15,771 bases of DNA from Bacteroidales bacterium UBA3824 (GTDB lineage: Bacteria; Bacteroidota; Bacteroidia; Bacteroidales; UBA3824), in contig DGIK01000106.1 in assembly GCA_002393195.1 (NCBI GenBank), positions 4,384-20,154 of the forward strand. Reading direction: 5' to 3'. The position numbers were made by a program, and so were the translations under genes. A model generated the notes under the pieces. That model was not told the origin of the DNA. It did not search any database and saw only the letters and a program-made list of their open reading frames with translations. Position 1 is the stretch's first letter; each line of letters starts with the position of its first letter. Below, one piece after another: positions 1,819 through 15,385 of this stretch.

Positions 1819-1893
1819 TTGGATAAAAGATGTGGCCTTACGGCCAGAAATTTTACAAAAATTTAAAAGAAAATTTTTCAAAATTATTGGATT
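1769..1893. repeat. Foldback element: AT-rich arms around two GC hairpins
   Basis: The AT-rich arm at about 1772-1803 reappears, inverted and imperfect, at about 1860-1891; the reverse complement of the right arm begins AATAATTTTGAAA like the left arm. Between the arms are two hairpins: CCGCC-GTCA-GGCGG (1805-1818) and TGGCC-TTAC-GGCCA (1833-1846). The layout resembles a REP/BIME- or MITE-like non-coding element lying directly upstream of the GxxExxY gene. Only the left half occurs at the second copy (2382-2433). Confidence 0.55.
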
Positions 1894-1927
1894 GAAAGAA
1901 ATACAAACTATTATAAATCAATATTAT

Positions 1928-2353
1928 ATGGATTTGATAGAAGAACACAACAAGAAATACACTTTTTTCCGGGAGATTACAGGTGTGGCTATGAAAGTAC
2001 ACACCAAGTATAAACCAGGATTATTGGAGTCTGCGTATGAGGCAGCGATGAGATACCTATTGGACAAAATGGGGTATAAGGTTGAACGTCAGGTTTTTCT
2101 TCCAATTTTTTGGGATGATGTGCAACTTGACCAAACCTATCGTATGGATTTGGTGATTAATGATGACATCATTGTTGAACTCAAATCGGTAACTTATGTT
2201 GATACTAATCATCGTAAGCAATTGTGGAATTATATGAACTTGACTCACAAACCATTTGGTATGCTGATAAATTTCGGTGCCGAAAGCCTTTTCTCCGAAT
2301 GGTATGAACGTGATCCACAAACCGGGAAAATTGAAAAAATACGGTTACTGTAA
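1928..2353 (+). CDS. GxxExxY protein (PD-(D/E)XK nuclease-fold family)
   Basis: A 141-residue protein from the ATG at 1928, close to the usual family length (about 125-140). An upstream in-frame GTG (1832) would put the start inside a hairpin element, so the ATG is preferred. The name-giving motif is GLLESAY (G31, E34, Y37). A nuclease-like acidic pattern follows: RMDLVIND with D74, then VELKSV with E84 and K86, as in PD-(D/E)XK folds. The motif HRKQLWNYMNLT and the GMLINFG segment are also typical. The family is widespread in Bacteroidota and has no established biochemical role; nuclease activity is a fold-based inference. The gene interrupts a likely catabolic operon, is more AT-rich than its neighbours and is bracketed by 52-bp repeats, all pointing to acquisition as a cassette. 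Confidence 0.88.
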   Translation: MDLIEEHNKKYTFFREITGVAMKVHTKYKPGLLESAYEAAMRYLLDKMGYKVERQVFLPIFWDDVQLDQTYRMDLVINDDIIVELKSVTYVDTNHRKQLWNYMNLTHKPFGMLINFGAESLFSEWYERDPQTGKIEKIRLL

Positions 2354-3382: not shown

Positions 3383-3766
3383 CTATCTTGATACGCTCAT
3401 CGGCATACCGAAAGCCCACCCAAATTTGCGGACAAGTTCGGCGAGGAGATTGCGGTCTCTCGTGGGAATCAGAATATTGACCGATTCTTGTCGCGAATCG
3501 CGCTCTGCGATTTTTGCGGTGTCGAGGTCGTATTGTGTCTGCATATTCATCCAAATGTCGGCGGGTATGCCGAGTGCTTTTTCTAACGCAACGGCTACAT
3601 TAAGTGACACGCTTCGCTTGCCATTGACTGTTTCGCTTATAACAGACGGTTTTATGCCTGTTTGTTCTGCAAGTTGCTTCTGCGTAATGCCGCGCTCTTT
3701 GAGTTCGTCTTTTATCATTTCGCCGGGGTGAGTGGCGGCAAACGGGATGTAGGTCTTTTTATTCAT
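3383..3766 (-). CDS. higA: HigA-type antitoxin (XRE-family HTH)
   Basis: A 127-residue protein starting at the ATG at 3766; an upstream in-frame start at 3784 lies well inside the toxin gene and is unlikely. The N-terminus has the HigA signature HPGEMIKDEL, followed by a Cro/C1 helix-turn-helix (about residues 27-52: ITQKQLAEQTGIKPSVISETVNG in the sequence, here cited by position only as the core) and the typical ALGIPADIWMNMQTQYDL segment. HigA binds and neutralises HigB and represses its own operon. It overlaps the end of the toxin gene by 8 bp, with the toxin first, the standard higBA order. The C-terminal 40 residues form a slightly long tail with no recognised motif. Confidence 0.92.
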   Translation of the reverse strand: MNKKTYIPFAATHPGEMIKDELKERGITQKQLAEQTGIKPSVISETVNGKRSVSLNVAVALEKALGIPADIWMNMQTQYDLDTAKIAERDSRQESVNILIPTRDRNLLAELVRKFGWAFGMPMSVSR

Positions 3767-4076
3767 AGTGCTTAGAAATTTCAATTAATAATGCATTTAC
3801 AACAATGTTGTTTTCATCGGCAGAACTATTGAACAACAGACGGTATTGGTCGTTAATCCATACAGCATCAACGCCATTGAGGTCGCCTTTTTTCTTTTCA
3901 TAGTGAAGCGACTTGATTAAAAATAGGTCTTCAAGCCTTCTTGCTGCCTTTATATAGTTGACTACCTTGATATAGCGTTTTACAATGTCTTTCGACAGAC
4001 GCTTGTAACGGTGGTCTTTTGTGGCGCCCAAGGTGTAAAGATCCTCTAATCCTGTGTTATCAAATTCAATGTTCAT
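3759..4076 (-). CDS. higB: HigB-type toxin (RelE/ParE superfamily mRNA interferase)
   Basis: A 105-residue protein, the usual toxin size. Recognisable HigB features are DLYTLGATKDHRYKRLSKD near the N-terminus, the KSLHYEKKKGD segment (55-65), the strand WINDQYRL (73-80) and the end motif EISKHYE. HigB toxins are ribosome-dependent endoribonucleases that cut mRNA during translation. The gene is followed by higA with an 8-bp overlap and preceded by a Bacteroidota-type -7 box. It lies directly downstream, on the same strand, of the HerA-NurA-methyltransferase operon, 173 bp from the methyltransferase stop, which fits a defence-island setting. It appears complete. Confidence 0.92.
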   Translation of the reverse strand: MNIEFDNTGLEDLYTLGATKDHRYKRLSKDIVKRYIKVVNYIKAARRLEDLFLIKSLHYEKKKGDLNGVDAVWINDQYRLLFNSSADENNIVVNALLIEISKHYE

Positions 4077-4249: not shown

Positions 4250-5374
4250 TCATCTTGTTAAAATTATGTCAACTTCGCCCGGTTTCATTGACTTGTCCCC
4301 GAATAGTTTTGTTTGTGTCTTGGACAACTCTGTTAATGGTTTTTCCACTATTTGGACATTATGCTTCGGGAAGCGTTTTTGTAAAATTTCCAAAGTGGAT
4401 TTAAATGTAAATTCGCGTTTGTCTGTTCTTACATAAATTGTACTTTTTTTTGCCATCATCTTAGAACATAAGCCAAATACGTTATCCAAAAGTTCATAGT
4501 ATTCCTGTTTGTTTGCAAACCTACCCTTATGCTTGTCTTGTATTGCTTTGGGACTATCTGAACCACCCAACATCCATAATCTTAACCATTGGTCAGCATG
4601 GTAATTGGTTACAGCACAATACGGCGGAGACGTAAATAACAAAGAAAATTTTATGTTGTTTTCGATTGAACGTCTTGCTATATCAACCAATTGAACAGAA
4701 CTATCGCCAAAAAGTACTTTACTATCACAAACCTGAGGCAACCCTTTGGCGTAACGCCAATCAATCTTTTTAATTAAAAACTCACATGGGTTTATCTCAG
4801 GCGGTACAGCCATATTGTTGTTTTTCCACCAATTAACGGAATAATTCATACCCATTGATTTAGTCATACGCATTTGGTTGGATAATCCTTCGCCAATTTT
4901 GCCATGCAAATAAATCAATATGATGGACATCAATGTTGCATCAATGTTGTTATTTTCCCAATCCAAATAAGTCCTTGCCGACAAAAGAAACCTTAAAACT
5001 TCATTGCAATAGCATATATGGTAAAATTCAGGCATACCCAAAGCCATATCTTGAAACGCATCTCGTTTTCCATATATTTCAAGTAATCTATCAATAACAT
5101 CATCCTTTTTCGCAGGCGACAATTTAACTGTGCCATAAAGCCATCCCACTGGATTAATTTCTATGCCCAAACTATTTCTACCTAAAACACCGCCCGCAAA
5201 AATACTACTGCATCTGCCTGCAAAAGGGTCAATTATAAAATCCCCTTCTTTTGAATATTTCTCGACAACATCAAAAGCAAAATCAACAGGAAACATAGCA
5301 TAATAGGGACCGAACCGAGCCCAACGGCTTTCGGCTGTATCAAATCCATGTAATATTTTTTCTTTTACTAACAT
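4250..5374 (-). CDS. DNA methyltransferase of a HerA-NurA-methyltransferase operon (N6-A or N4-C type)
   Basis: A 374-residue protein from the ATG at 5374. The frame stays open 123 bp further upstream inside the nuclease gene, but the 5374 start gives a typical 7-bp stop/start overlap and precedes the conserved FGPYYAMFP block (21-29). Motif I is DPFAGR (49-54), followed by GIEINPVGW with the acidic E72 that would contact S-adenosylmethionine. Catalytic motif IV is TSPPY (248-252). Motif I precedes motif IV with about 195 residues between them, which could hold the target-recognition region. TSPPY fits amino-methylation (N4-cytosine or N6-adenine), not C5. Oddity: motif I continues as FAGRC where FAGRG is more usual. 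It is last in an operon with a DNA translocase and a nuclease, suggesting it marks self DNA. The recognition site is not predictable. Confidence 0.85.
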   Translation of the reverse strand: MLVKEKILHGFDTAESRWARFGPYYAMFPVDFAFDVVEKYSKEGDFIIDPFAGRCSSIFAGGVLGRNSLGIEINPVGWLYGTVKLSPAKKDDVIDRLLEIYGKRDAFQDMALGMPEFYHICYCNEVLRFLLSARTYLDWENNNIDATLMSIILIYLHGKIGEGLSNQMRMTKSMGMNYSVNWWKNNNMAVPPEINPCEFLIKKIDWRYAKGLPQVCDSKVLFGDSSVQLVDIARRSIENNIKFSLLFTSPPYCAVTNYHADQWLRLWMLGGSDSPKAIQDKHKGRFANKQEYYELLDNVFGLCSKMMAKKSTIYVRTDKREFTFKSTLEILQKRFPKHNVQIVEKPLTELSKTQTKLFGDKSMKPGEVDIILTR

Positions 5375-6747
5375 TTTGTTTTTCTCTCTTTGATTTCTTT
5401 TGCAATTTCGTCGAATAATCTTTTTCCCAAATTGAGAGGAATTGCCGCTTCTGCATGTGCCGAGATAAGCGGTGAGATGGAATTTGGATAACGGCATGAA
5501 ACTACGCTATCCAACAATGTCATAATATCTGCCAGTCTTGGGAATTGGTCAGGTTTTGCCGTTGATAGATTTTTTTGATAATCGGTAAAAGTACATGCAA
5601 CAGGTACTATTTTTTGTCCCGATTTGGTTTTGTAAAAGAATTTCCTACCGAAATAAGTGTCTTGACCATAAGGTTTTGTACTTTCGGAATATATAATATT
5701 CTTTTTGATATAGGAATCGTCTAATAGTAATGCTGATTGATTCGGAAATACGTCTGTATGTCCGTCTACATCAGTGTCGATGGTTTCAAAATGATTGAAA
5801 AAAGTACCGCTTTTTTCAATACCTATGATTAAAAGGTCAACACCGCTTACCTTTTTCTGTTTTTCATTTATCCTTTGTATCTCTTTGCTGATAACCTTAG
5901 TCAGCCATGATGAAGTGCTAAACACTGCCAATGGACCATCCATTACAAAGGCATATTCTTGCGCAAATTCAAGCCATCCATTTTGTTCAAATGCCCTGAG
6001 AATGTGAACGAGCCAAAGTTTTTCCATGGTGGACATTATTTGACCATACAACTCACCGCTCGTGCCGGAAGGATTAAGTAATTCATGCAAACGTAATGCG
6101 TCCGTAGAGTATAGATTTTTGCCGGAATGAGGACATTTGTAAATACCCATACCGTAAGTCATATCTTTGTCAGCATATCCTTCAATTGGACTCTTAGGCT
6201 TTGGCGTAGATTTTCCGTCTGAATCAATTTTAAGTTGAAATAAATATTCGTATGTATCTAAAAGAGATTCGCAATTTTTAAAGATTCTATTTCGTTCAAA
6301 TTCCTCATAAATTGCCTTTCTGACAGATGATTTGGCATCATCTTCTTTATCTAGGATGACATTACATCCGGGAAATACCGTTTCAATAGATGTTGCATCT
6401 TCTGTTTTTCTTGCTAATCGTGGATCAATAAACTTATTCGATTCCAATTGTTTTATTAAATCCAATTTGAGTAAAACAGACGCGATTGTAATGTAGCCAA
6501 ATTCAGCACCAGGAAAACCATTCTCAATAGGATGTGTCAAATTGCTGCCATCAATTGCAATGATGTAATTCGGCTGTAATTTGCTTCCTTCCAAATCTGA
6601 TTTTTTTACAATACTTTTTTTTACGCTGTTTGTCGCGTCTTTGTCCTTGTGACGGACAATTAAGCGTTTTTCAAGTTCAGCAACTTTTTTGCTTTCCATA
6701 ATCCGTCTAAGCGGTTCATAACTTGCAAATTCACCTTCGAAACTCAT
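5368..6747 (-). CDS. nurA: NurA-domain nuclease
   Basis: A 459-residue protein with a NurA-type (RNase H-like) nuclease domain. Key segments in order: YIIAIDGSN with D66, GYITIASV (84-91), FVMDGPLAVF with D270, GIEKSG with E311, YFGRKFFYK (366-373) and HAEAAIPLNLGKRLF with H431 and E433. NurA proteins are metal-dependent 5'-3' exo/endonucleases that work inside a HerA translocase in DNA end resection. Between the first two acidic motifs is an insertion of roughly 150 residues containing YKCPHSGKNLYSTDALRLHE, a sequence that looks like a degenerate Cys/His site. The start is supported by a strong Shine-Dalgarno (GGAGGG, 5 nt before the ATG), unusual for this phylum. The stop of herA is 14 bp upstream and the methyltransferase start overlaps its end by 7 bp, so the three genes form one operon. 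Confidence 0.85.
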   Translation of the reverse strand: MSFEGEFASYEPLRRIMESKKVAELEKRLIVRHKDKDATNSVKKSIVKKSDLEGSKLQPNYIIAIDGSNLTHPIENGFPGAEFGYITIASVLLKLDLIKQLESNKFIDPRLARKTEDATSIETVFPGCNVILDKEDDAKSSVRKAIYEEFERNRIFKNCESLLDTYEYLFQLKIDSDGKSTPKPKSPIEGYADKDMTYGMGIYKCPHSGKNLYSTDALRLHELLNPSGTSGELYGQIMSTMEKLWLVHILRAFEQNGWLEFAQEYAFVMDGPLAVFSTSSWLTKVISKEIQRINEKQKKVSGVDLLIIGIEKSGTFFNHFETIDTDVDGHTDVFPNQSALLLDDSYIKKNIIYSESTKPYGQDTYFGRKFFYKTKSGQKIVPVACTFTDYQKNLSTAKPDQFPRLADIMTLLDSVVSCRYPNSISPLISAHAEAAIPLNLGKRLFDEIAKEIKERKTKC

Positions 6748-6761
6748 TTTTCCCTCCGTTT
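6748..6761 (-). promoter_or_regulatory. Strong Shine-Dalgarno before nurA
   Basis: The short gap between the herA stop and the nurA ATG reads ACGGAGGGAAAAATG on the minus strand. GGAGGG would pair well with the 16S rRNA 3' end. Most other starts in the window show no such site, so nurA translation may be set higher than that of its neighbours. Confidence 0.6.
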
Positions 6762-8876
6762 TTATATCTCAAATTTATCGACTTGAACGGGAATCACAAA
6801 AAGATTGCTCAAAGTTTTTACTCTAAGGAATCCTTTGTCTTGTGCTCGTCTTATTGACGGTTCAAAATCTGCAAAATCATAGTACTTGCAAAGTTCTTTT
6901 GTCTCGTCTGTATTATTCAAATGGCTGATAAACCAGTTTGAAGTGTTTTTAAGAATGTTCTTTTGAATAGAACTTACCTCTTGTGTGGCATATACCATAC
7001 CAATATGGTATTTGGCACCCTCCTTTGCTGTTCGTACCCACATATTGGACGTGTCCAAGTCGTTACCGGCAGGGAGAATATTGTGTGCTTCCTCAACATA
7101 AACAAGTATTTGAGGAATATTATCGTTGCCATTGATAAATTCACGTTGATTATTCGTAAAAATCTTTGTAATAATACGAAGTGCAGAAGATTGATTCAGA
7201 GATGGCTCGCCTGTTGATTGGTCAACAATCACGAGTTTTCCCTTAATTAAATCTTTATAAATATCATCGGCATAATCACTTGACATTTTTGGACTATGCT
7301 GAGAAATTGCTTTTCCAATCTTTCTTGTACCATTGGGATATTGAAAAATTCCAAGAATTTTCTTCAAATCTTCGTCAGCCCATCTTTCGCCGGAACCATC
7401 GGGCCTATTGACATAGGCGTTTTCGAAATCCCTATATCCACTACTTGAATCTCTAATAAACTTATCCAATGATTCAAAAGCCGTTCCTAATTGTTCCCAT
7501 GTCGCATTGTTTGCAGCAAACACCATTGCCGCTGATTGATACTCAGGAGCATCAGTACTTTGGCTTTGTCTTAGCGCGGCCAATATTTCTGGACCAAATA
7601 ACCCTTTGGTTTTTGGTTGCAAAGAAACAGGCGGAGGAAACCCTGCACGATTCAAAACGGCGCGATATGCAAGAAGACGTCTGTTGTATCTGGTCATAGC
7701 AGACCCAAAAGGTGGCACATTTTCAGGCTTATTCAAATTAGCCTGAATGAAATTTTTAATATATGTTGTAGTATCGTCCGCCAAGAGATTGTTGATAATA
7801 TCCTTTCCTATCAGGATATTCTCTTCCAAATAGAAATTTAACAACATCATTTTCCTATCAGGATCTTTCGGGTGTGTTGTTATACCGTATGTTACGACTT
7901 CATTCTCTTTTTTTGCACCATTAATCAGTTTCCATACATTTTTCAATGCAGATTTATTGTCTTGCGAGTCTTTATCTTGTGCGTTTTCATTTGCATACTC
8001 ACCGTTAGGATCAAAGATTAATTGACCTATTCTAATCGGTTTCCCGCTATTGTCATTTTGCTTACGCAATTCAAAAACGGATTTTGCAATAATCTTTGTA
8101 GTATTAGATTTACCTGTTCTCGTCATTCCAAAAAGGGCAGACTTCTGCGAAAGCAAATCTGATGGATAGATATAAACGGGAACATTATCAATATTTTGAT
8201 ACTTCCGATTAGATGATGCATATCTCACATGGCCTATTTGCACTTTGCAATTTTCTCCATATGCTTTTTGCATTCGTTTTTCTTCTATCGGGTCAATATA
8301 ATTGACAATCGTTTTGAGAGCATCACCGTTGGGTTTGTACACTTTCATTCCTTCGTTGGGATAATAGTTAGAAAGGTCGCTACCAAACTTTAATTGCAGC
8401 GGTGCATTAGGACTCTGAGGGTCTTCTTCTAAATAGAACGTACCAATAATACGGCATAGAACTCCATTAAAACTCAGAAATCTCTTTGTGCGAAAATCCA
8501 TAGTCTCTTTTTCGTCCCAATGTTTTACCTCTCCACTTACTCTTTGTGCTGCCTCAACTCTGATACGCTCGGCTTCTTTGTCTTGTGGCAATTGTGCAGA
8601 GTCCATAACACGCAATAAGATAAAAGAGGCTTCTTCGTCTGCGAAATTGATTTCTGAATCAGGATTAACACGAGTCGCAATCAGGAAACTAAGGCTTGGA
8701 ATACCTCCTACTTCATGTTTGAAGAAGTCATTAATTATGACCTTCGCAGTTTCATAATTAATGGAGTATATATCACCAACGCATTGCTCTGATTGTATAA
8801 TTTTTCCAAAAATCTGTTTGCATTCGTTTACTCGACGAGATTTGAGGGTATCTTTTATGCTCTGTTCTATTTCCAT
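6762..8876 (-). CDS. herA: HerA-type DNA translocase ATPase (FtsK-HerA superfamily)
   Basis: A 704-residue protein starting at the ATG at 8876. The frame is open 276 bp further upstream, but that stretch overlaps the promoter and does not look like protein. Residues about 30-100 match an N-terminal HAS-barrel-like region (VGDIYSINYETAKVIIND). Walker A is GMTRTGKS (250-257), followed by LIFDPNGEY (286-294); Walker B is ILVYVEEAH (590-598, E595/E596); then RTAKEGAKYHIG and YATQEVSSI with Q632, and SHLNNTDETKEL (651-662). This is the HerA order. About 190 residues between the first strand and Walker B are larger than in archaeal HerA, so the protein is longer than the classical 500 residues. HerA hexamers pump double-stranded DNA and form a complex with NurA, whose gene follows after 14 bp. 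It is first in the operon, with a good promoter just upstream. Confidence 0.9.
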   Translation of the reverse strand: MEIEQSIKDTLKSRRVNECKQIFGKIIQSEQCVGDIYSINYETAKVIINDFFKHEVGGIPSLSFLIATRVNPDSEINFADEEASFILLRVMDSAQLPQDKEAERIRVEAAQRVSGEVKHWDEKETMDFRTKRFLSFNGVLCRIIGTFYLEEDPQSPNAPLQLKFGSDLSNYYPNEGMKVYKPNGDALKTIVNYIDPIEEKRMQKAYGENCKVQIGHVRYASSNRKYQNIDNVPVYIYPSDLLSQKSALFGMTRTGKSNTTKIIAKSVFELRKQNDNSGKPIRIGQLIFDPNGEYANENAQDKDSQDNKSALKNVWKLINGAKKENEVVTYGITTHPKDPDRKMMLLNFYLEENILIGKDIINNLLADDTTTYIKNFIQANLNKPENVPPFGSAMTRYNRRLLAYRAVLNRAGFPPPVSLQPKTKGLFGPEILAALRQSQSTDAPEYQSAAMVFAANNATWEQLGTAFESLDKFIRDSSSGYRDFENAYVNRPDGSGERWADEDLKKILGIFQYPNGTRKIGKAISQHSPKMSSDYADDIYKDLIKGKLVIVDQSTGEPSLNQSSALRIITKIFTNNQREFINGNDNIPQILVYVEEAHNILPAGNDLDTSNMWVRTAKEGAKYHIGMVYATQEVSSIQKNILKNTSNWFISHLNNTDETKELCKYYDFADFEPSIRRAQDKGFLRVKTLSNLFVIPVQVDKFEI

Positions 8877-8902
8877 ATTAATTGGGTGTTTTGATTTCAC
8901 GC

Positions 8903-8934
8903 CAAATTTACAACAAATTCCAATACTTGACAAA
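8903..8934 (-). promoter_or_regulatory. Promoter of the herA-nurA-methyltransferase operon
   Basis: The minus strand shows TTTG (8931-8934), a 20-nt spacer and TAAATTTG (8903-8910), an exact match to the Bacteroidota housekeeping consensus TTTG-N19-21-TAnnTTTG. Initiation a few bases downstream would give a leader of about 20 nt before the herA ATG at 8876, which also supports that start. Confidence 0.75.
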
Positions 8935-8997
8935 TCTTTTTGTAATTTTTTTGTATGAAAGTTATAATTCGCTAAATATAAATTATTTATTAGATTC

Positions 8998-9009
8998 TTT
9001 ATCGATAAA
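8998..9009. promoter_or_regulatory. Palindrome in the herA/rhuM divergent region
   Basis: TTTATCGATAAA is a perfect 12-bp palindrome lying between the two divergent promoters. It could be an operator, but a short AT-rich palindrome can occur by chance. Confidence 0.25.
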
Positions 9010-9036
9010 ATCGCAATATATGCGGTGGAATTCGTC

Positions 9037-9052
9037 AATGCAACGTAGCATT
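9037..9052. promoter_or_regulatory. Near-palindrome abutting the -33 box of the short rhuM gene
   Basis: AATGCAACGTAGCATT is a dyad with 14 of 16 symmetric positions. It ends 4 bp before the -33 TTTG at 9057. Size and position suit a repressor or activator site; the adjacent HTH protein is an obvious candidate binder, which is inference. Confidence 0.35.
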
Positions 9053-9056
9053 TCGT

Positions 9057-9087
9057 TTTGAATTTTCCCCTTATTTTTGTACATTTG
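9057..9087 (+). promoter_or_regulatory. Promoter of the short RhuM-like gene
   Basis: TTTG (9057-9060), a 19-nt spacer and TACATTTG (9080-9087) match the Bacteroidota consensus. The ATG lies 18 bp after the -7 box. The full-length RhuM gene at the right of the window has the same TACATTTG box at a similar distance from its start. Confidence 0.75.
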
Positions 9088-9105
9088 CCCAAAAATAGCA
9101 CGCTT

Positions 9106-9519
9106 ATGCCACAGCACCAAAACATATCCGAAGTCGCATCGCTTAAAAACAACGGCGAGATTGTTATGTATCAGCCTGATAATGATATTCGCTTGGAAGT
9201 CAGGTTGGATAAAGAAACTGTATGGCTAACACAACAGCAAATTGCTGATTTGTTTGGCGTTAAACAGCCTGCCGTTTCTAAACATCTTTCAAATATATTC
9301 AAGGAAGGCGAACTCGATAAAAATTCAGTGTATTCCATTTTGGAATATACTGCCGCAGTCAATGAGCACTTATGGACAACTCCTTCCCACGACCGTTGGC
9401 TGATTGTTGACGACAATCTTTTCCACTGTGGACATTCAATTAAAGATATGGGCAAAAAACTCACCGCAATAATGTTGATGGGAACTCCGCCCGAAACAAT
9501 TTTGAATGTTGTAATGTAA
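9106..9519 (+). CDS. Internally deleted RhuM-like HTH protein
   Basis: A 137-residue protein from the ATG at 9106. Residues about 20-80 match the N-terminus of the RhuM family: MYQPDNDIRLEVRLDKETVWLTQQQ, then a helix-turn-helix (IADLFGVKQPAVSKHLSNIF). At residue 81-93 (YTAAVNEHLWTTP) it jumps directly to a phospholipase-D-like C-terminal segment, SHDRWLIVDDNLFHCGHSIKDMGKK (94-118). Compared with the full-length relative at 14493-15332, about 150 residues are missing: the RhuM core, the coiled linker and the first half of the PLD-like domain. The frame, promoter and stop are intact, so it may still make a small DNA-binding protein; otherwise it is a recent pseudogene. It is divergent from herA. 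The C-terminal end (AIMLMGTPPETIL) differs from the longer relative, so it was derived from another family member, not copied from it. Confidence 0.75.
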   Translation: MPQHQNISEVASLKNNGEIVMYQPDNDIRLEVRLDKETVWLTQQQIADLFGVKQPAVSKHLSNIFKEGELDKNSVYSILEYTAAVNEHLWTTPSHDRWLIVDDNLFHCGHSIKDMGKKLTAIMLMGTPPETILNVVM

Positions 9520-9547
9520 TCGATAATACCTTAAAAACTACACCACT

Positions 9548-10978
9548 ATGCTAAAACATCTATTAATCATTGTATCGTTGCTTGTAATGCCGGTAATGGC
9601 ATCGGCGCAGGAAGGCGTTGAAAAACACCGTCTTATAGTTCTCACCGACATTGAGAACGAACCTGATGACGGCGAAAGTATTGTAAGACTGTTGTTGTAC
9701 TCTAATGTTATTGACATTGAGGGAATTATAGCCACAACGTCCGTTCACATGAAAAATATTGTTGCGCCGGAATCGATTTTGATGGCGGTGGACGCTTACG
9801 AAAAGGTGCGCCCAAATCTTTTGCTGCATCAGGAGGGTTGGCCCAAGGCGGATTATTTGCGCTCGATTGTTACGAAAGGTCTGCCAAAATACGGTATGAC
9901 AGCCGTTGGAAAGGGTTGTGATTCAGAAGGATCAGAACTCATTATCAATGCTCTGAAAAAAGACGATAGCCGTCCGCTGTGGATTTCAGTTTGGGGCGGA
10001 GTTAATACGTTGGCGCAGGCGTTGTGGAAAATCAAAAACAACTACAAGCCCGCTGAGGCTCAGAAACTTATCTCCAAACTTCGCGTCTATACCATCTCCG
10101 ACCAAGACGATTCAGGCATTTGGATTCGCAAAAATTTTCCCGAATTGTTTTACATCGTGAGTCCGGGCGGATACGGCAACGCCACATGGAGCGGAATTAT
10201 GGACGATGACCCTTTGTCGGAGCCACAATATATTTCTAATCAGTGGCTTGCAGAAAATATTCAGCAAAACCACGGGCCAATGGGTGAGATTTATCCTGAT
10301 GTGGCTTACGGTATGGAGGGCGACACTCCGTCGTGGTTGGGCTTGATTCCTAACGGTCTCAACGATATGGAGCACCCTGATTTTGGTGGTTGGGGCGGAC
10401 GTTACAAGTATTACACTCCCGAATACGAAACGCTTGATTTGAAGGGTTTTAACGGTGGTGTGCCTATTGAACACGAGCCGCACAATATTTGGACTAACGC
10501 GGTGGACTCGTTTTATTGTTATGCTCCGGGCGAGTACGGCAGGGCGATGGTCCGCACCAAAAAGACAGGCGGCTACAAGGCAACGGTGTGGCGTTGGAGG
10601 GCTGATTTCCAGAACGATTTTGCGGTGCGAATGGATTGGTGTACAAAGGATTACGCATCAGCCAACCACAATCCCATTGTAAAACTCGCTCACAGCGAGA
10701 AACTGACGGTAAAAAGTGGCGAGTGGTTTAGCCTTGATGCCACAGGCAGTTACGACCCCGATGGAGACAATCTCTCTTACCTTTGGTTTTGTTACCCTGA
10801 GGCGGGTACTTACGGTAAAAATCACGACGTGGAAGGCGCAGAAAACATTCGCCACGTCAATGTCCACGCGCCCAAAGTGTCCGCACCCTGCACAATACAT
10901 TACATCCTCAAAGTTACCGACAAAGGCACGCCAAGGCTTACGAGTTACAAGCGAGTGGTGGTGACAGTGATTCCATAA
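9548..10978 (+). CDS. Secreted DUF1593 / Sde182-like protein (nucleoside-hydrolase-like plus Ig-like domain)
   Basis: A 476-residue protein with a signal peptide (hydrophobic 4-17, cleavage likely after ASA at 20). The mature part starts with a DUF1593 domain, whose TDIENEPDD motif (33-41) resembles the calcium-binding aspartates of nucleoside hydrolases; WGGVNTLAQAL and the YTISDQDDSG and SPGGYGNATW segments are also typical. From about residue 371 an Ig/PKD-like domain follows (SLDATGSYDPDGDNLSYLW), matching the Sde182 C-terminal domain. Related proteins have been described as cellulose-binding and are common in polysaccharide-degrading bacteria, but the catalytic activity is not established. 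It starts 28 bp after the short RhuM gene, without a convincing promoter of its own, and ends 6 bp from the convergent YARHG gene. Codon use is GC-richer than in the defence genes. Confidence 0.88.
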   Translation: MLKHLLIIVSLLVMPVMASAQEGVEKHRLIVLTDIENEPDDGESIVRLLLYSNVIDIEGIIATTSVHMKNIVAPESILMAVDAYEKVRPNLLLHQEGWPKADYLRSIVTKGLPKYGMTAVGKGCDSEGSELIINALKKDDSRPLWISVWGGVNTLAQALWKIKNNYKPAEAQKLISKLRVYTISDQDDSGIWIRKNFPELFYIVSPGGYGNATWSGIMDDDPLSEPQYISNQWLAENIQQNHGPMGEIYPDVAYGMEGDTPSWLGLIPNGLNDMEHPDFGGWGGRYKYYTPEYETLDLKGFNGGVPIEHEPHNIWTNAVDSFYCYAPGEYGRAMVRTKKTGGYKATVWRWRADFQNDFAVRMDWCTKDYASANHNPIVKLAHSEKLTVKSGEWFSLDATGSYDPDGDNLSYLWFCYPEAGTYGKNHDVEGAENIRHVNVHAPKVSAPCTIHYILKVTDKGTPRLTSYKRVVVTVIP

Positions 10979-10984
10979 TGTGGA

Positions 10985-11899
10985 TTACTTACTCTTGTTT
11001 TCCCACGCCTTAATCAAATCCACGTTCAATTGCTCCAATTGTGAGAGTTGCACTTTTGAATTGTCGTTCAATGGCTTGTACCAACTCATTTTGGCGAAGT
11101 GGGCTTTGAGGTCGGCGGAGGAGAACACATAGCCGTGGCGGGCGTAGATTTCGTTGCGCATTACGCGGAGTTGAGCCTTGGAGAAATAATCCAATTCTGA
11201 CGGCAAAACCAATTTCAACGAGGTGTAAGGATACTGACCCGTGAGGATTTCGGTGATTTGGTCTTTCTTGGTGAGCGACTTGTAAAACGTTGATTGCTTG
11301 TAATATCCAACAGGGTTATCGTCGTCCCAAACGGCGTTGTAGAGGTCGATTCCCTTGTCGGTGAACTCCACCCAATAGATTTTGCCGTTTTTGAGTTTGA
11401 AACATTGTGCCATATTGCCATCGCTGACCTGAACCTCAAACTTCTCGCCGTTGAGCGATTCGCGGGCAAAGTTGTACTCCTTGCCCTGAGAGTCGGTGTA
11501 GATGCCGTCGAGCATATCGAGCAAAAGTTGGTCGTCGTGATTCCAATCTTTCAGTTCCGCCAAGAGTGTAGTGACTACGTTTTTGGAATTTCGCGCCACG
11601 AGCACAACGTTTTCCGCGTCGTAGCCGTCGATGATTTTCATTCTTGTAACAGTGCAGCCGTTGCCACTCATATTAAACTCAGCGTCAACTACTTTGTATT
11701 TGTCGGTTCCGATGCCTTTGAGTTCCCAATCAAGACCTGCATCGGTATAACCGCCAACGAATTGGTAGTTGCCATTTTCGGCCTTGTCGCAGTACCAACC
11801 GCCGAGACCGTCAGTCCAAGTGCGGTTGGTGATGTTTTGCGCGGTGGCGGTAGCGGCTAAAATAGTGGTCGTCAAGAGTGTAAAAAGTGTTTTTTTCAT
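10985..11899 (-). CDS. Secreted YARHG-domain protein
   Basis: A 304-residue protein with an N-terminal signal peptide (MKKTLFTLLTTTILAATATA, cleavage near A20). The C-terminal YARHG domain spans about 232-278, with the motif RNEIYARHGYVF (248-259) and the closing SWYKP (272-276) that define it. The middle part (25-225) is probably beta-rich and has no family I recognise; GGWYCDKAENGNYQFVGG near the start suggests a secreted or periplasmic fold. YARHG domains are extracellular and of unknown function, often found in Bacteroidota and Firmicutes envelope proteins. It is transcribed from a clear promoter at 11943-11974 and converges with the DUF1593 gene, their stops separated by 6 bp. Nothing suggests truncation. 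Confidence 0.88.
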   Translation of the reverse strand: MKKTLFTLLTTTILAATATAQNITNRTWTDGLGGWYCDKAENGNYQFVGGYTDAGLDWELKGIGTDKYKVVDAEFNMSGNGCTVTRMKIIDGYDAENVVLVARNSKNVVTTLLAELKDWNHDDQLLLDMLDGIYTDSQGKEYNFARESLNGEKFEVQVSDGNMAQCFKLKNGKIYWVEFTDKGIDLYNAVWDDDNPVGYYKQSTFYKSLTKKDQITEILTGQYPYTSLKLVLPSELDYFSKAQLRVMRNEIYARHGYVFSSADLKAHFAKMSWYKPLNDNSKVQLSQLEQLNVDLIKAWENKSK

Positions 11900-12111: not shown

Positions 12112-12864
12112 TCACACCGTTTTGTTTACAGATTCTTTATCCGTAAACAACATTTGAATGGTGAACTCAATTTTATTCAGTGTTGATATAGATTTTGTAT
12201 AATCTTCACTGATGTTGAAAATATTAGCGATTTTCAAACTTGCTGCAATTCTTTTGGTTTCATTAAGTTTTTCAGTTGTGGTAATATGGATTGTTCTTTC
12301 CTCAACTTGTGGACCATTAGGAATTCTATTTTTGAATAGATACTTGAAATTTTTGTGATTGTATAAACCCAATTCCGTTGCCATATCAACCGCTTTTTGA
12401 TAGTTTTCTGTTGTTAGCGGATTGTTTCCAAATCTTTCATAACGCGAATATTGTTTCTCTTTTTCTTGCATAACATTGGATTTAACATCGAAATTTAAAT
12501 CCAATGGTTTATATACGACAGAAAAAGGAGTAGTTCGTTCAAGAGTTTGACACTCTGTTATTTTGCTCTCAATTTTTATGCTTTTTGCACCCAAATAATC
12601 AGAGATTGTACACAATTCGTCAGCCAACTCGTTCAACGAAGTTTCTTCTAATTTATCCAATTTCACGAAACAATTGTCTTTATATGGATGCATAACCAAC
12701 ATCATTCCTTCAATGAAATCTTCGTTGGGAAATTTGTAGCCACGATACTTCTTGTTTACGATGTTTGGAGAAAGGAAAACAATATCTTTATCTATCGTAT
12801 TGGCTTTTTCCTCCCAACGATAGTTGACCGCTCGCTCCGCTGTTGTTATGTAGATTATTTTCAT
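12112..12864 (-). CDS. Unknown protein, third gene of the GTPase operon
   Basis: A 250-residue protein that I do not recognise. The N-terminal 65 residues (MKIIYITTAERAVNYRWEEKA) look like an alpha/beta start. A likely central region with alternating hydrophobic strands, LGAKSIKIESKITECQTLE and YKPLDLNFDVKSN (90-130), is followed by a charged helix (MQEKEKQYSRYERF). The C-terminal half is mostly helical. No signal peptide, no membrane segment and no catalytic motif is visible. It starts 12 bp after the stop of the tail-anchored protein and so belongs to the same transcript as that protein and the GTPase. By position it could be the effector or partner of the GTPase; this is inference. Codon use is AT-rich like the rest of the operon. 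Confidence 0.75.
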   Translation of the reverse strand: MKIIYITTAERAVNYRWEEKANTIDKDIVFLSPNIVNKKYRGYKFPNEDFIEGMMLVMHPYKDNCFVKLDKLEETSLNELADELCTISDYLGAKSIKIESKITECQTLERTTPFSVVYKPLDLNFDVKSNVMQEKEKQYSRYERFGNNPLTTENYQKAVDMATELGLYNHKNFKYLFKNRIPNGPQVEERTIHITTTEKLNETKRIAASLKIANIFNISEDYTKSISTLNKIEFTIQMLFTDKESVNKTV

Positions 12865-12876
12865 CTTTATTATTCT

Positions 12877-13503
12877 TTAAGTGGTTCTATAATAAATCAT
12901 TAAGACAATACCTAAACAGAGAATTATTAATATTATGATTAAATATATTGTTGTTTTATTTCTATATTTTATTTTATACCTATAGTCATCTAACTCGTAA
13001 ATAGGATTTGGTGCATAGCCATAAGTATGAAATTCTGTTTTTAACTTCTCCATAGCCCATTCTGTTATTGTTGTTGCAAATCTATTACTGTCATCAGCTT
13101 CGTTCAAAAGAAACCTGATTTCTTTTTCTGAAAAAGTATAACCATTATCGTTTGCAATATTATTCAGTGTTTCTATCGCAACATTCATATTGACAGTATT
13201 AGGCATATAAAACATAAAGGCGATATACCTGCCTTCAACATCACGTTGCTCAAAACTTGATTGTATATAAATTCCCGCTGGTCTTGTCGTGTATAAATAT
13301 CTGAAATTTTGCGACAAGCCATTTTTTTTCCAAACTTTTAAATCTCGTTCAAAGTTGAAAGCGGATAATTTGGAATAATCAAGAAGTTTTTTGACAACAT
13401 TTCGCCGATTCTGTTCCATGGATGTCAAATCTTCCCCCGCGACAATAATTTTGTCGTGCTTGCCATTTTCTCTGTCTTGTATCCACATTAAAGCCTCAAT
13501 CAT
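12877..13503 (-). CDS. C-tail-anchored membrane protein, second gene of the GTPase operon
   Basis: A 208-residue protein of no recognised family. The first 180 residues are soluble-looking, with a conserved-looking core TTRPAGIYIQSSFEQRDVEGRYIAFMFYMP (73-101, cited by position and partial sequence) and an acidic helix EKEIRFLLNEADDS. A single hydrophobic stretch follows at about 184-204 (IYLIIILIILCLGIVLMIYY), ending three residues before the stop. There is no signal peptide, so the soluble domain should face the cytosol, held to the inner membrane by its C-terminus. It begins 2 bp after the GTPase stop and is followed after 12 bp by the third gene. A plausible job is as membrane receptor, effector or regulator of the GTPase; there is no direct evidence. 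Confidence 0.78.
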   Translation of the reverse strand: MIEALMWIQDRENGKHDKIIVAGEDLTSMEQNRRNVVKKLLDYSKLSAFNFERDLKVWKKNGLSQNFRYLYTTRPAGIYIQSSFEQRDVEGRYIAFMFYMPNTVNMNVAIETLNNIANDNGYTFSEKEIRFLLNEADDSNRFATTITEWAMEKLKTEFHTYGYAPNPIYELDDYRYKIKYRNKTTIYLIIILIILCLGIVLMIYYRTT

Positions 13504-13505
13504 TT

Positions 13506-14177
13506 CTATTTGAATTTTTTAAGAATGTGAAAAGCTTCTTCTTTTCTTCTCATATCCACTAAGAGAAAAAAATGATCAAGAAGAATGCTCTTATAATCCT
13601 TATCTTTATTTAAATCGATGATTCGTCTTTTGATTCCATTGACAAGATTTTTCAATTTAAATTCCGCTTCTGAATCTCCATTGTATTTCTTGACAAGCAA
13701 TCCCTCAGTGTCAAATTCATCCAAATGCGTACCTATTACACCGTGGTCTCTTTTTTCACTAAGGAAACCGTGTCGTGTAATAAAATCGAATCGACAATTG
13801 GTAGCGAAGCGATAATCGTAGTCTTCTATATATTTTTTTGCGTTAAAGAAGAACAATGAAATATCAGATGCCTCAATGTATGCTGGATAATATGGACAAA
13901 GGTCTTCACTACCTCCTATATCGTCGTTGGATGCTATTTTAAATTTAAAATCCTTATCTTCAATAACAAACCTCTCGTATGGTGAAGTAATTGTCTGTTC
14001 CGATTTATCAATTTCATTGCACAAATTATACAAGAAACTTGTTTTGCCTGACGCACTCATCCCAAGCACCGCCATACCTTTGTAATTGAATATTTTTTCA
14101 TACAATGTTTTCTCTTTTTCGCCTAAGAGACAACCTAATACCATCGTCGAATTGACAAATAAACTATCCCAAAACAT
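13506..14177 (-). CDS. Small Ras-like P-loop GTPase
   Basis: A 223-residue protein with the motifs of a small regulatory GTPase. G1/Walker A is GMSASGKT (39-46), G3 is DIGG (86-89), resembling the DxGG of Arf/Ras-type GTPases, and a likely G4 is THLDEFD (150-156), a variant of the usual NKxD/TKxD that gives guanine specificity. The hydrophobic strand before G3 and ISLFFFNA after it fit the Rossmann-like fold. Binding of GTP, not ATP, rests on the imperfect G4 and is inferred. There is no membrane segment. It is first of three closely spaced genes (2 and 12 bp gaps), so the tail-anchored protein and the unknown protein are its likely partners. No standard promoter was found; a structured leader lies upstream. 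Small GTPases of this kind in bacteria act in polarity, motility, trafficking-like or defence systems. Confidence 0.82.
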   Translation of the reverse strand: MFWDSLFVNSTMVLGCLLGEKEKTLYEKIFNYKGMAVLGMSASGKTSFLYNLCNEIDKSEQTITSPYERFVIEDKDFKFKIASNDDIGGSEDLCPYYPAYIEASDISLFFFNAKKYIEDYDYRFATNCRFDFITRHGFLSEKRDHGVIGTHLDEFDTEGLLVKKYNGDSEAEFKLKNLVNGIKRRIIDLNKDKDYKSILLDHFFLLVDMRRKEEAFHILKKFK

Positions 14178-14251: not shown

Positions 14252-14370
14252 CACACCTGAGGTCGGCTAAAACCCATTTATGACTATGAAAAGCCCGCAC
14301 CCTTTTATAGGGATGCGAGCATTTGCAGGTGCTGACCATAAATTATCTGATTTTAGCCGTTTCAGGTATG
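14252..14370. repeat. Long imperfect inverted repeat around a terminator hairpin
   Basis: Left arm 14252-14282 contains ACCTGA, CGGCTAAAA and ATTTATG. Right arm 14337-14370 contains their complements in reverse order: CATAAAT, TTTTAGCCG and TCAGGT. Matches are broken by short bulges. The 54-bp interior holds the terminator hairpin. A further complementary pair, GTCAGC (14371 side) and GCTGAC (14331-14336), offers an alternative fold on the same strand. The length and nesting suggest a structured RNA or a foldback mobile element end. Confidence 0.6.
14289..14320 (-). terminator. Intrinsic terminator, minus strand
   Basis: On the minus strand GCTCGCA-T-CCC, loop TATAAAA, GGG-TGCGGGC is followed by TTTT. 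Stem pairs are complete except for one bulged T and one G-T wobble. It lies 172 bp after the RhuM stop, so it probably ends that transcript and insulates the GTPase operon. There is no T-run on the plus strand. Confidence 0.65.
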
Positions 14371-14492: not shown

Positions 14493-15332
14493 TCAAATAA
14501 TCCTACTCAGCACCTCGCTCGCCGCCATCTCCATTTTGCTAAATGCGAACCACTTTTTGCCGAGGTCTTTGAGCAATGCGCCGATGTGATAGACGGTGTC
14601 GTCGATGATTAGAAAACGGTCGTGGGATTGTGTAAAACTTTGGATTGTGATTGGTGCGTATTGGGCGTTGTGGCGTTGGATGTCGAGTTGCAACTGAGGT
14701 GTCAAGTTTTTGGTGTAGATGGTTGCTGAAACGTTTTGCTCACGTTTGTCCAACATTTGCAAAACAGTATCATCAACGTAATTGTCTATTAAGACAATGC
14801 GTTGTTTTGCGCTGCGTATCAGGTCGTTGGCAAATTTGTATGCGTCGAAAATCTGTCCGTCGTAGAATATGCCCTCTACCGGTGGCAGTGAAGTCTTGAC
14901 AAAGAAGTCGATTTTGTTTTCGGTTTGGGTTACACGCTGTTCAAGCCGTTCCAACCGTTGGTTGACGGAGTAGCCTTTCATCATATACTCTTTAAGTACT
15001 CGGTTAGCCCATTGACGGAATTGTATGCCACGTTTTGTATTAACTCTGAACCCCACAGAGATAATTACATCGAGATTAAACAATTCCACTTTGCGTCTAA
15101 CCATACGGTTGCCTTCCTTTTGAAGTAGTTCCAAAATGGAACTACTTGAACTGCGTTCTAATTCTTCACAGTCAAAGATATTTTTCAGATGTTTCGTAAT
15201 TGCTTGACGTTGTGTGCCAAACAATTCCGCCATCTGTTGCTGTGTGAGCCACACCGTCTCGTTTTCAAGTCGAACTTCGAGTTTTATCGTTTCGTCCGGT
15301 TGATATAGGATTATTTCGTTGTTCTCTGCCAT
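14493..15332 (-). CDS. RhuM-family HTH protein with phospholipase-D-like C-terminus
   Basis: A 279-residue protein from the ATG at 15332; an in-frame TTG at 15356 overlaps the -7 box and is rejected. The N-terminus LEVRLENETVWLTQQQ leads into a helix-turn-helix (MAELFGTQRQAITKHLKNIF, 34-53), then the RhuM core (residues 79-119: VELFNLDVIISVGFRVN and FRQWANRVLKEYMM). A coiled-coil linker (NQRLERLEQRVTQTENK, 124-140) connects to a PLD-like part with RIVLIDNYVDDTVLQML (178-194) and SHDRFLIIDD (236-245). The last is an HxR variant of the HxK motif, so catalytic activity is uncertain. RhuM genes in Bacteroidota are often found beside type I restriction genes and in defence islands; their function is not established. 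A good promoter lies just upstream and a terminator downstream, so it is probably monocistronic. Confidence 0.85.
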   Translation of the reverse strand: MAENNEIILYQPDETIKLEVRLENETVWLTQQQMAELFGTQRQAITKHLKNIFDCEELERSSSSSILELLQKEGNRMVRRKVELFNLDVIISVGFRVNTKRGIQFRQWANRVLKEYMMKGYSVNQRLERLEQRVTQTENKIDFFVKTSLPPVEGIFYDGQIFDAYKFANDLIRSAKQRIVLIDNYVDDTVLQMLDKREQNVSATIYTKNLTPQLQLDIQRHNAQYAPITIQSFTQSHDRFLIIDDTVYHIGALLKDLGKKWFAFSKMEMAASEVLSRII

Positions 15333-15353
15333 AATACCATTTCTTTGATGCAA

Positions 15354-15385
15354 CAAATGTAGTAATAATTAAGCAAATGGTCAAA
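15354..15385 (-). promoter_or_regulatory. Promoter of the full-length RhuM gene
   Basis: On the minus strand TTTG (15382-15385), a 20-nt spacer and TACATTTG (15354-15361) match the Bacteroidota consensus. The -7 box ends 21 bp before the ATG at 15332. The box is identical to that of the short RhuM gene at 9080-9087. Confidence 0.75.

Follow-up and report, generated by a model that had tools for sequence, protein, structure and literature searches.

Small GTPases of the Arf family are recognized by a DxGGQ motif with the catalytic Gln, an NKxD motif, and an N-terminal amphipathic, myristoylatable helix starting with MG, and Arf/SRβ-type GTPases with longin-type partners are best known from eukaryotes and archaea. 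Members of the longin/roadblock superfamily have a five-stranded sheet (β-β-α-β-β-β) flanked by helices and bind small GTPases directly as homo- or heterodimers. Two described pairs offer mechanistic comparisons for the locus reported here: the GTPase/longin pair SRβ–SRX (accessible part of PMC4686813) and the bacterial MglA–MglB pair, a GTPase with its roadblock GTPase-activating protein (GAP; accessible part of PMC4316618). In the same part of PMC4316618, bacterial small GTPases are found with roadblock or sensor partners, and Group 1 Rup GTPases, which have no G3 Gln, are neighbored by a coiled-coil protein, a transmembrane (TM) protein with an OmpA domain, and a signaling protein. The available text of PMC10933270 considers the roadblock (RB)/longin families to be archaeal in origin and sporadic in bacteria, and describes the small-GTPase genes of the archaeon MK-D1 as generally not in operons with RB/longin partners. 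Here we describe a three-gene operon on the minus strand (12112–14177) of a 15,771-nucleotide stretch of Bacteroidales bacterium UBA3824 (contig DGIK01000106.1; the whole stretch is called the window), encoding a divergent small GTPase (protein 1), a putative docking partner (P2), and a third protein (P3). Our best reading is that it represents a switch of a make-up not previously described, set in defence-like islands.

Comparison with described systems

In its working, the operon would be comparable to SRβ–SRX or MglA–MglB, although the defining features tested do not place it in either class. Like SRβ–SRα(SRX), it would place an Arf-related GTPase and a probable longin-type partner in a membrane complex. 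Unlike the signal recognition particle (SRP) receptor, however, it has no NG domain or SRP link and includes an unrelated third gene; the window anchor sits on the partner, and protein 1 has no N-terminal TM segment and scores 12.8 bits with the SRPRB Pfam model (cut-off, 25). In MglA–MglB, too, a small bacterial GTPase is encoded next to a small partner, possibly of a similar fold class, and the G3 motif of MglA also deviates from the Ras consensus (accessible part of PMC3000849), whereas the window GTPase is nearer to Arf and Roc, and the window operon has a predicted membrane anchor and a third gene. Moreover, P2 is not detected by Robl_LC7: PF03259 (MglB/roadblock) did not appear in the match lists of P2 members (E ≤ 10), and the source genome (G000) has no match to it at E ≤ 0.01.

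Group 1 Rup systems (Wuichet and Sogaard-Andersen 2014) share with the operon a small GTPase, conserved gene order in an operon, a membrane component, and the missing G3 Gln; no OmpA, kinase, or cyclase match was found among the scanned neighbors in the window, the open reading frames (ORFs) of the related loci L004 and L029 being judged by eye. The DO-GTPase/GAP1 systems (Kaur et al. 2020; accessible part of PMC7159879) are similar in combining a GTPase with a dedicated partner, membrane proximity, and variable neighbors. Nevertheless, protein 1 scores 12.6 bits with DO-GTPase1 (cut-off, 27), the DO-GTPase2 matches of 3 of the 15 family members stay under the cut-off (22.6 versus 27 for the L029 GTPase), and the GAP1, GASH, and FNIII proteins described in that part of the source were not found in the window. 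For the three window proteins, PADLOC 2.0.0 gave no significant defence match (best, PDC-M16A at 0.036 and DrmD at 0.038; none for P2), and Pfam and NCBIfam gave nothing significant beyond the Arf-type GTPase. The original prediction of a possibly new system is not contradicted by any match to a described one, and no published description of this operon was found in the literature searched, which left most subscription papers and bioRxiv preprints outside its reach.

Operon organization and recurrence

Gene 1 (13506–14177; 223 aa) encodes the Arf/SRβ/Roc-like small GTPase with a moderately hydrophobic N-terminus, gene 2 (12877–13503; 208 aa) encodes P2 with a soluble domain and a C-terminal anchor, and gene 3 (12112–12864; 250 aa) encodes P3, an α/β protein with a long β-hairpin. 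The three closely spaced minus-strand ORFs lie where they had been predicted, separated by 2 and 12 bp, and the operon is indeed AT-rich, with a GC content of 0.325 versus 0.477 in the downstream YARHG gene, 0.481 in the nucleoside-hydrolase-like gene following it, and 0.431 in the upstream RhuM gene. The terminator-like structure also predicted ahead of the operon fared less well: a hairpin stem is present between the RhuM gene and the operon (14293–14320, minus strand), but a count of one against a shuffle mean of 1.2 is no excess over chance. The source assembly (4.18 Mb) has a completeness of 96.7% and a contamination of 6.4%.

The same three genes recur in the same order in two further genomes, and are therefore regarded as real genes rather than chance ORFs. 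In a same-genus metagenome-assembled genome (G004; locus L004), GTPase (8881–9561), P2 (9564–10355), and P3 (10345–11103) are consecutive, and in a genome of another family (G308; locus L029) they occupy 578–1291, 1288–1791, and 1776–2606, with P2 homologues beside the GTPase in both; pairwise similarity of the operon proteins among the three genomes is well above that of shuffles. The co-occurrence on which the predicted module depended is thereby established for at least 3 of the 393 genomes of the order with the complete operon side by side, genome counts from several of these searches being lower bounds. A refined profile (E ≤ 1e-30) found the GTPase in at least 5 of 393, adding G052 and G027 to these three. 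In G052 (locus L003), it is accompanied by a short, doubtful P2, and P3 gave no match, while the G027 contig stops 93 bases past the GTPase, so that partner genes are out of reach.

The family is rare. When 5.8 billion proteins were searched from the single sequences of protein 1 and protein 2, each query retrieved itself alone. A whole-genome search brought up relatives of the GTPase in G004 (E, 3e-15) and G052 (2e-5), and a three-row GTPase profile yielded 17 matches besides the query (P0003–P0019; P0004 is the G052 protein). At the phylum level, this profile matched 10 of 395 genomes including its own (E ≤ 1e-3); L009, the only one inspected of the other nine, contains a GTPase that is Rab-like by eye. 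Within the order, the A4 profile matched 12 of 393 genomes (E ≤ 1e-5), with an additional weak second match in G052; five strong ones were used, and G062 alone was inspected of the remaining seven. Its locus (L051) is Rup-like by eye and separate from this GTPase family. The A3 profile matched 8 of 393 genomes, including G136 and G115 at E 0.004–0.006, and a further search matched 7 of 384, G033 among them. No relatives were found in IMG/VR, phage, and plasmid collections with the GTPase queries tried, or in viral-contig scans with A1 and P0008. Occurrence is sporadic, at 2 of 18 genomes for the window's family and 1 of 15 for that of G308, which together with the low GC content suggests that the operon was gained horizontally.

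GTPase and the moving predicted membrane anchor

Protein 1 had been predicted to be a Ras-like GTPase; it is a small GTPase by sequence, but its nearest relatives are Arf, SRβ, and Roc rather than MglA. Its best Pfam family is PF00025 (Arf), passed marginally at 23.0 bits (cut-off, 22.3), and its listed relatives in PDB are ARL and Arf proteins, with ARL3 at 3e-4. A profile of 15 family members detected ARL3 (1.6e-11; positions 28–121) and LRRK2 Roc (5.5e-11; 34–207 of 210), and at E ≤ 0.001 the members match Arf (13/15), Roc (9/15), Ras (6/15), SRPRB and DO-GTPase2 (3/15 each), and Gtr1_RagA (2/15). The predicted motifs are all present (minus strand). In the G1/P-loop GMSASGKT (residues 39–46; 14040–14063), Gly39, Gly44, Lys45, and Thr46 are invariant in all 15 aligned members, as is a Thr at the G2 position. 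The G3 motif DIGG (residues 86–89; 13911–13922) is D[I/M]GG in 15 of 15 and is followed by Ser in the window and by Gln in none, and the variant G4 THLD (residues 150–153; 13719–13730) has Asp kept at its aligned position in 13 of 15 members, with NKxD in none of the 15. The DxGGQ and NKxD hallmarks of Arf are thus absent, and protein 1 starts with MFW, though some relatives (L003 and P0009) start with MG. Protein 1 is accordingly a divergent small GTPase of Arf/SRβ/Roc type, and, because there is neither a Gln after DIGG nor NKxD, we infer that its hydrolysis might need a residue supplied in trans.

Potential TM segments were called with a 19-residue Kyte–Doolittle scan (cut-off, 1.4). Protein 1 has none (best mean, 1.29), whereas P2 carries a single hydrophobic segment at its extreme C-terminus, in agreement with the original prediction (residues 185–203; 12895–12951, minus strand; mean, 3.22). 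The predicted site moves among relatives: it is the C-tail of P2 in the window and G308, the N-terminus of the GTPase in G004 (2.74), and the C-terminus of the GTPase in G027, so that exactly one of the three proteins carries a TM segment in each of the three complete operons. An N-terminal TM segment (≥1.4), similar to that of SRβ, is also present in 13 of the 17 matches P0003–P0019. In G052, the GTPase and the putative P2 are both free of TM segments, and a hydrophobic segment (1.88) is seen in the 431-aa protein upstream; the gene order at this locus (L003, 61–2471) puts this protein, which has sub-threshold matches to DUF533, LETM1, and TerB, ahead of the Arf-like GTPase (start, MGLLDNIW). 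The switching of the anchor between subunits makes a single membrane-bound complex of GTPase and P2 likely, and provides the strongest, albeit indirect, support for the two as a unit.

Partner and third proteins

P2 gave no significant family match in Pfam, NCBIfam, or PADLOC. Its residues 1–123 (13135–13503, minus strand) are predicted to form a β-β-α-β-β-β-α domain of longin/roadblock-like arrangement, the low-confidence model likewise showing a longin-like order of strands and helices, and longin/roadblock complexes make up 15 of the 50 rows of its structure search, with β-lactamases ranked above them. In our reading, P2 is probably a longin-like domain. Ile8, Gln9, Asp88, and Arg92 of P2 do not vary in the four-row alignment A5. 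Searched against plasmids, the P2 protein of L003 found nothing and that of L004 a single match (E, 0.9).

P3 had been described as without a recognized domain, and this holds for both sequence and structure: Pfam, NCBIfam, and PADLOC gave no significant match, and comparison of its predicted model (pLDDT, 75.9) gave no fold match. The model comprises a helix (69–90), a β-hairpin (95–118/121–145, tip uncertain), and a mixed α/β C-terminal half. Pairwise BLASTP relates the window P3 to those of L004 (1e-17) and L029 (2e-11), and a related domain is found inside proteins of 635–729 residues in G308, G342, G292, and G305. The window P3 aligns with those of G342 (8e-7), G308 (2e-4), and G292 (0.003), not with that of G305, and the L004 P3 aligns with all four at ≤3e-7. 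Sub-threshold TerB and bPH_3 matches occur in one of these four proteins each, and both of the two that were scanned match PDC-S48. In a relay from relative to relative, the G305 domain (L033) led to a protein of Planktothrix plasmid p3 (E, 1e-5), and this to a protein on Pectobacterium plasmid Drgb1 (3e-10); the window P3 and L029 P3 had no plasmid match, and viral-contig scans with the window P3 and the L033 domain found no relative. On the Planktothrix agardhii plasmid (L062, 1852–8746), the gene of the P3-related protein is flanked by those of a type III DNA methyltransferase and a BPTD_3080 restriction endonuclease, with an integrase gene close by, and the set may be a three-part restriction system. 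Because related domains occur in larger proteins and in this plasmid restriction locus, the P3-type domain is, by sequence relationship, used in other settings too and is not bound to the GTPase.

Genomic surroundings

The original prediction placed the operon in a region rich in defence genes and beside an unrelated secreted-protein gene, and both statements agree with the gene content. Upstream, 316 bp from the operon, is a RhuM-family gene (PDC-S05; 14493–15356, minus strand), and downstream is the YARHG-domain protein gene (10985–11899, minus strand) with a signal-peptide-like start. About 3 kb from the operon is a block (4250–9152, minus strand; GC, 0.365) of a HerA-like ATPase (796 aa), a NurA-domain protein (459 aa), and an N6/N4 DNA methyltransferase (415 aa) whose ORF overlaps that of NurA, which is likely a defence set. 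A short ORF (9058–9519, plus strand) matches the helix–turn–helix (HTH) part of the RhuM/PDC-S05 models, and this and the 14493–15356 gene, on opposite strands, flank the sugar-hydrolase, YARHG, and GTPase genes. The window also contains a HigB-like toxin and HTH antitoxin pair (3383–4076, minus strand) and a GxxExxY protein (1832–2353, plus strand; TIGR04256, 3.8e-35). In G004, the operon is followed downstream by a YhcG/DUF1016 nuclease (PDC-S02), a nucleotidyltransferase–HEPN pair, a second YhcG, and a RhuM gene. The co-directional cluster at the G308 locus (L029, 46–8744) encodes a CxxC-rich protein, the three operon proteins, two unmatched proteins in which HECAH/HELSH motifs are seen by eye, a PP2C phosphatase, a WG-repeat protein, and other small proteins; most of its scanned proteins have no Pfam match. 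The three neighborhoods are consistent with conflict or stress islands, three loci being too few for an enrichment test.

Proposed working and alternative explanations

We propose, with about an even chance of being right, that the operon is a membrane-tethered small-GTPase switch, of which P2 is the dedicated docking and regulatory partner and P3 the controlled output. The GTPase in its GTP form would dock on P2 at the inner membrane, where P2 of this copy would hold the anchor for the complex, and P2, or P2 with P3, would regulate the GTPase cycle and carry the output; the binding of GTPase and P2 would thereby control P3, which may sense or execute that output. The family of the GTPase by sequence, the three-gene linkage, and the alternation of the predicted anchor are the established elements; a GTPase–P2 contact, a longin fold of P2, its action as a GAP-like or nucleotide exchange factor-like regulator, the role of P3 as output, and a part in conflict or stress are the inferred ones. 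Weighing against the longin fold, β-lactamases outrank the longin/roadblock complexes in the structure search with the low-confidence P2 model. The operon had been predicted to be a complete switch–receptor–effector module; the GTPase, the membrane protein, and the co-occurrence of the three genes stand, while completeness, P3 as effector, and a function in immunity or envelope stress do not follow from the present data.

A defence role of the operon is plausible, and the neighborhoods in the window and G004, the restriction context of the L033-type domain, and the AT-rich, sporadic character of the operon favor it. In its definite form, anti-phage defence or abortive infection, in which infection is sensed at the membrane and the switched GTPase releases or activates P3 against cell or phage, we nevertheless consider it rather unlikely: beyond the insignificant PADLOC scores of the window proteins, the relatives' GTPases match NTPase models only (PtuA, 1.2e-4 in L004; LeoA, 0.001, and IetA, 0.006, in L029), the GTPase queries tried found no relatives in the IMG/VR, phage, and plasmid collections, nor did the window P3 and L029 P3 in plasmids, the long G308 cluster with its PP2C and WG-repeat proteins resembles a regulatory or stress locus more, and the loci are only three. 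These G308 proteins, the roadblock or sensor partners of bacterial small GTPases (accessible part of PMC4316618), and the occurrence of P3-type domains within larger proteins, of which two among four have TerB or bPH_3 matches below threshold, would instead suit a membrane-stress or surface-sensing switch akin to conservons or Group 1 Rup and unconnected with phages. We consider this, to the same degree, rather unlikely, since the sporadic spread and low GC content point to horizontal gain, which is unusual for a housekeeping function. It is somewhat more doubtful that the operon is a horizontally moving Bacteroidales immune switch resembling the eukaryotic SRP receptor, in which an Arf-like GTPase sits on a longin-type membrane dock and, through its GTP state, gates P3 as an infection-triggered membrane or nucleic-acid effector. 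Least probable is that protein 1 is a degenerate P-loop pseudo-GTPase serving as a scaffold without switching, as the missing Gln and NKxD might suggest; none of the 15 members departs from the P-loop Gly, Lys, and Thr, the G2 Thr, or the Asp-x-Gly-Gly of G3, and Group 1 Rup GTPases likewise have no G3 Gln in the accessible part of PMC4316618.

If the proposed membrane-tethered switch is correct, a compact bacterial GTPase/longin-type operon, with its moving anchor and third protein, would offer a simple genetic system for the control by a dock of an Arf-like switch that has no G3 glutamine of its own, and may extend bacterial conflict systems by a new switch class. Were the immune-switch reading true, the exchange of the anchor would mean that selection acts on the membrane location of the complex and not on that of either subunit.
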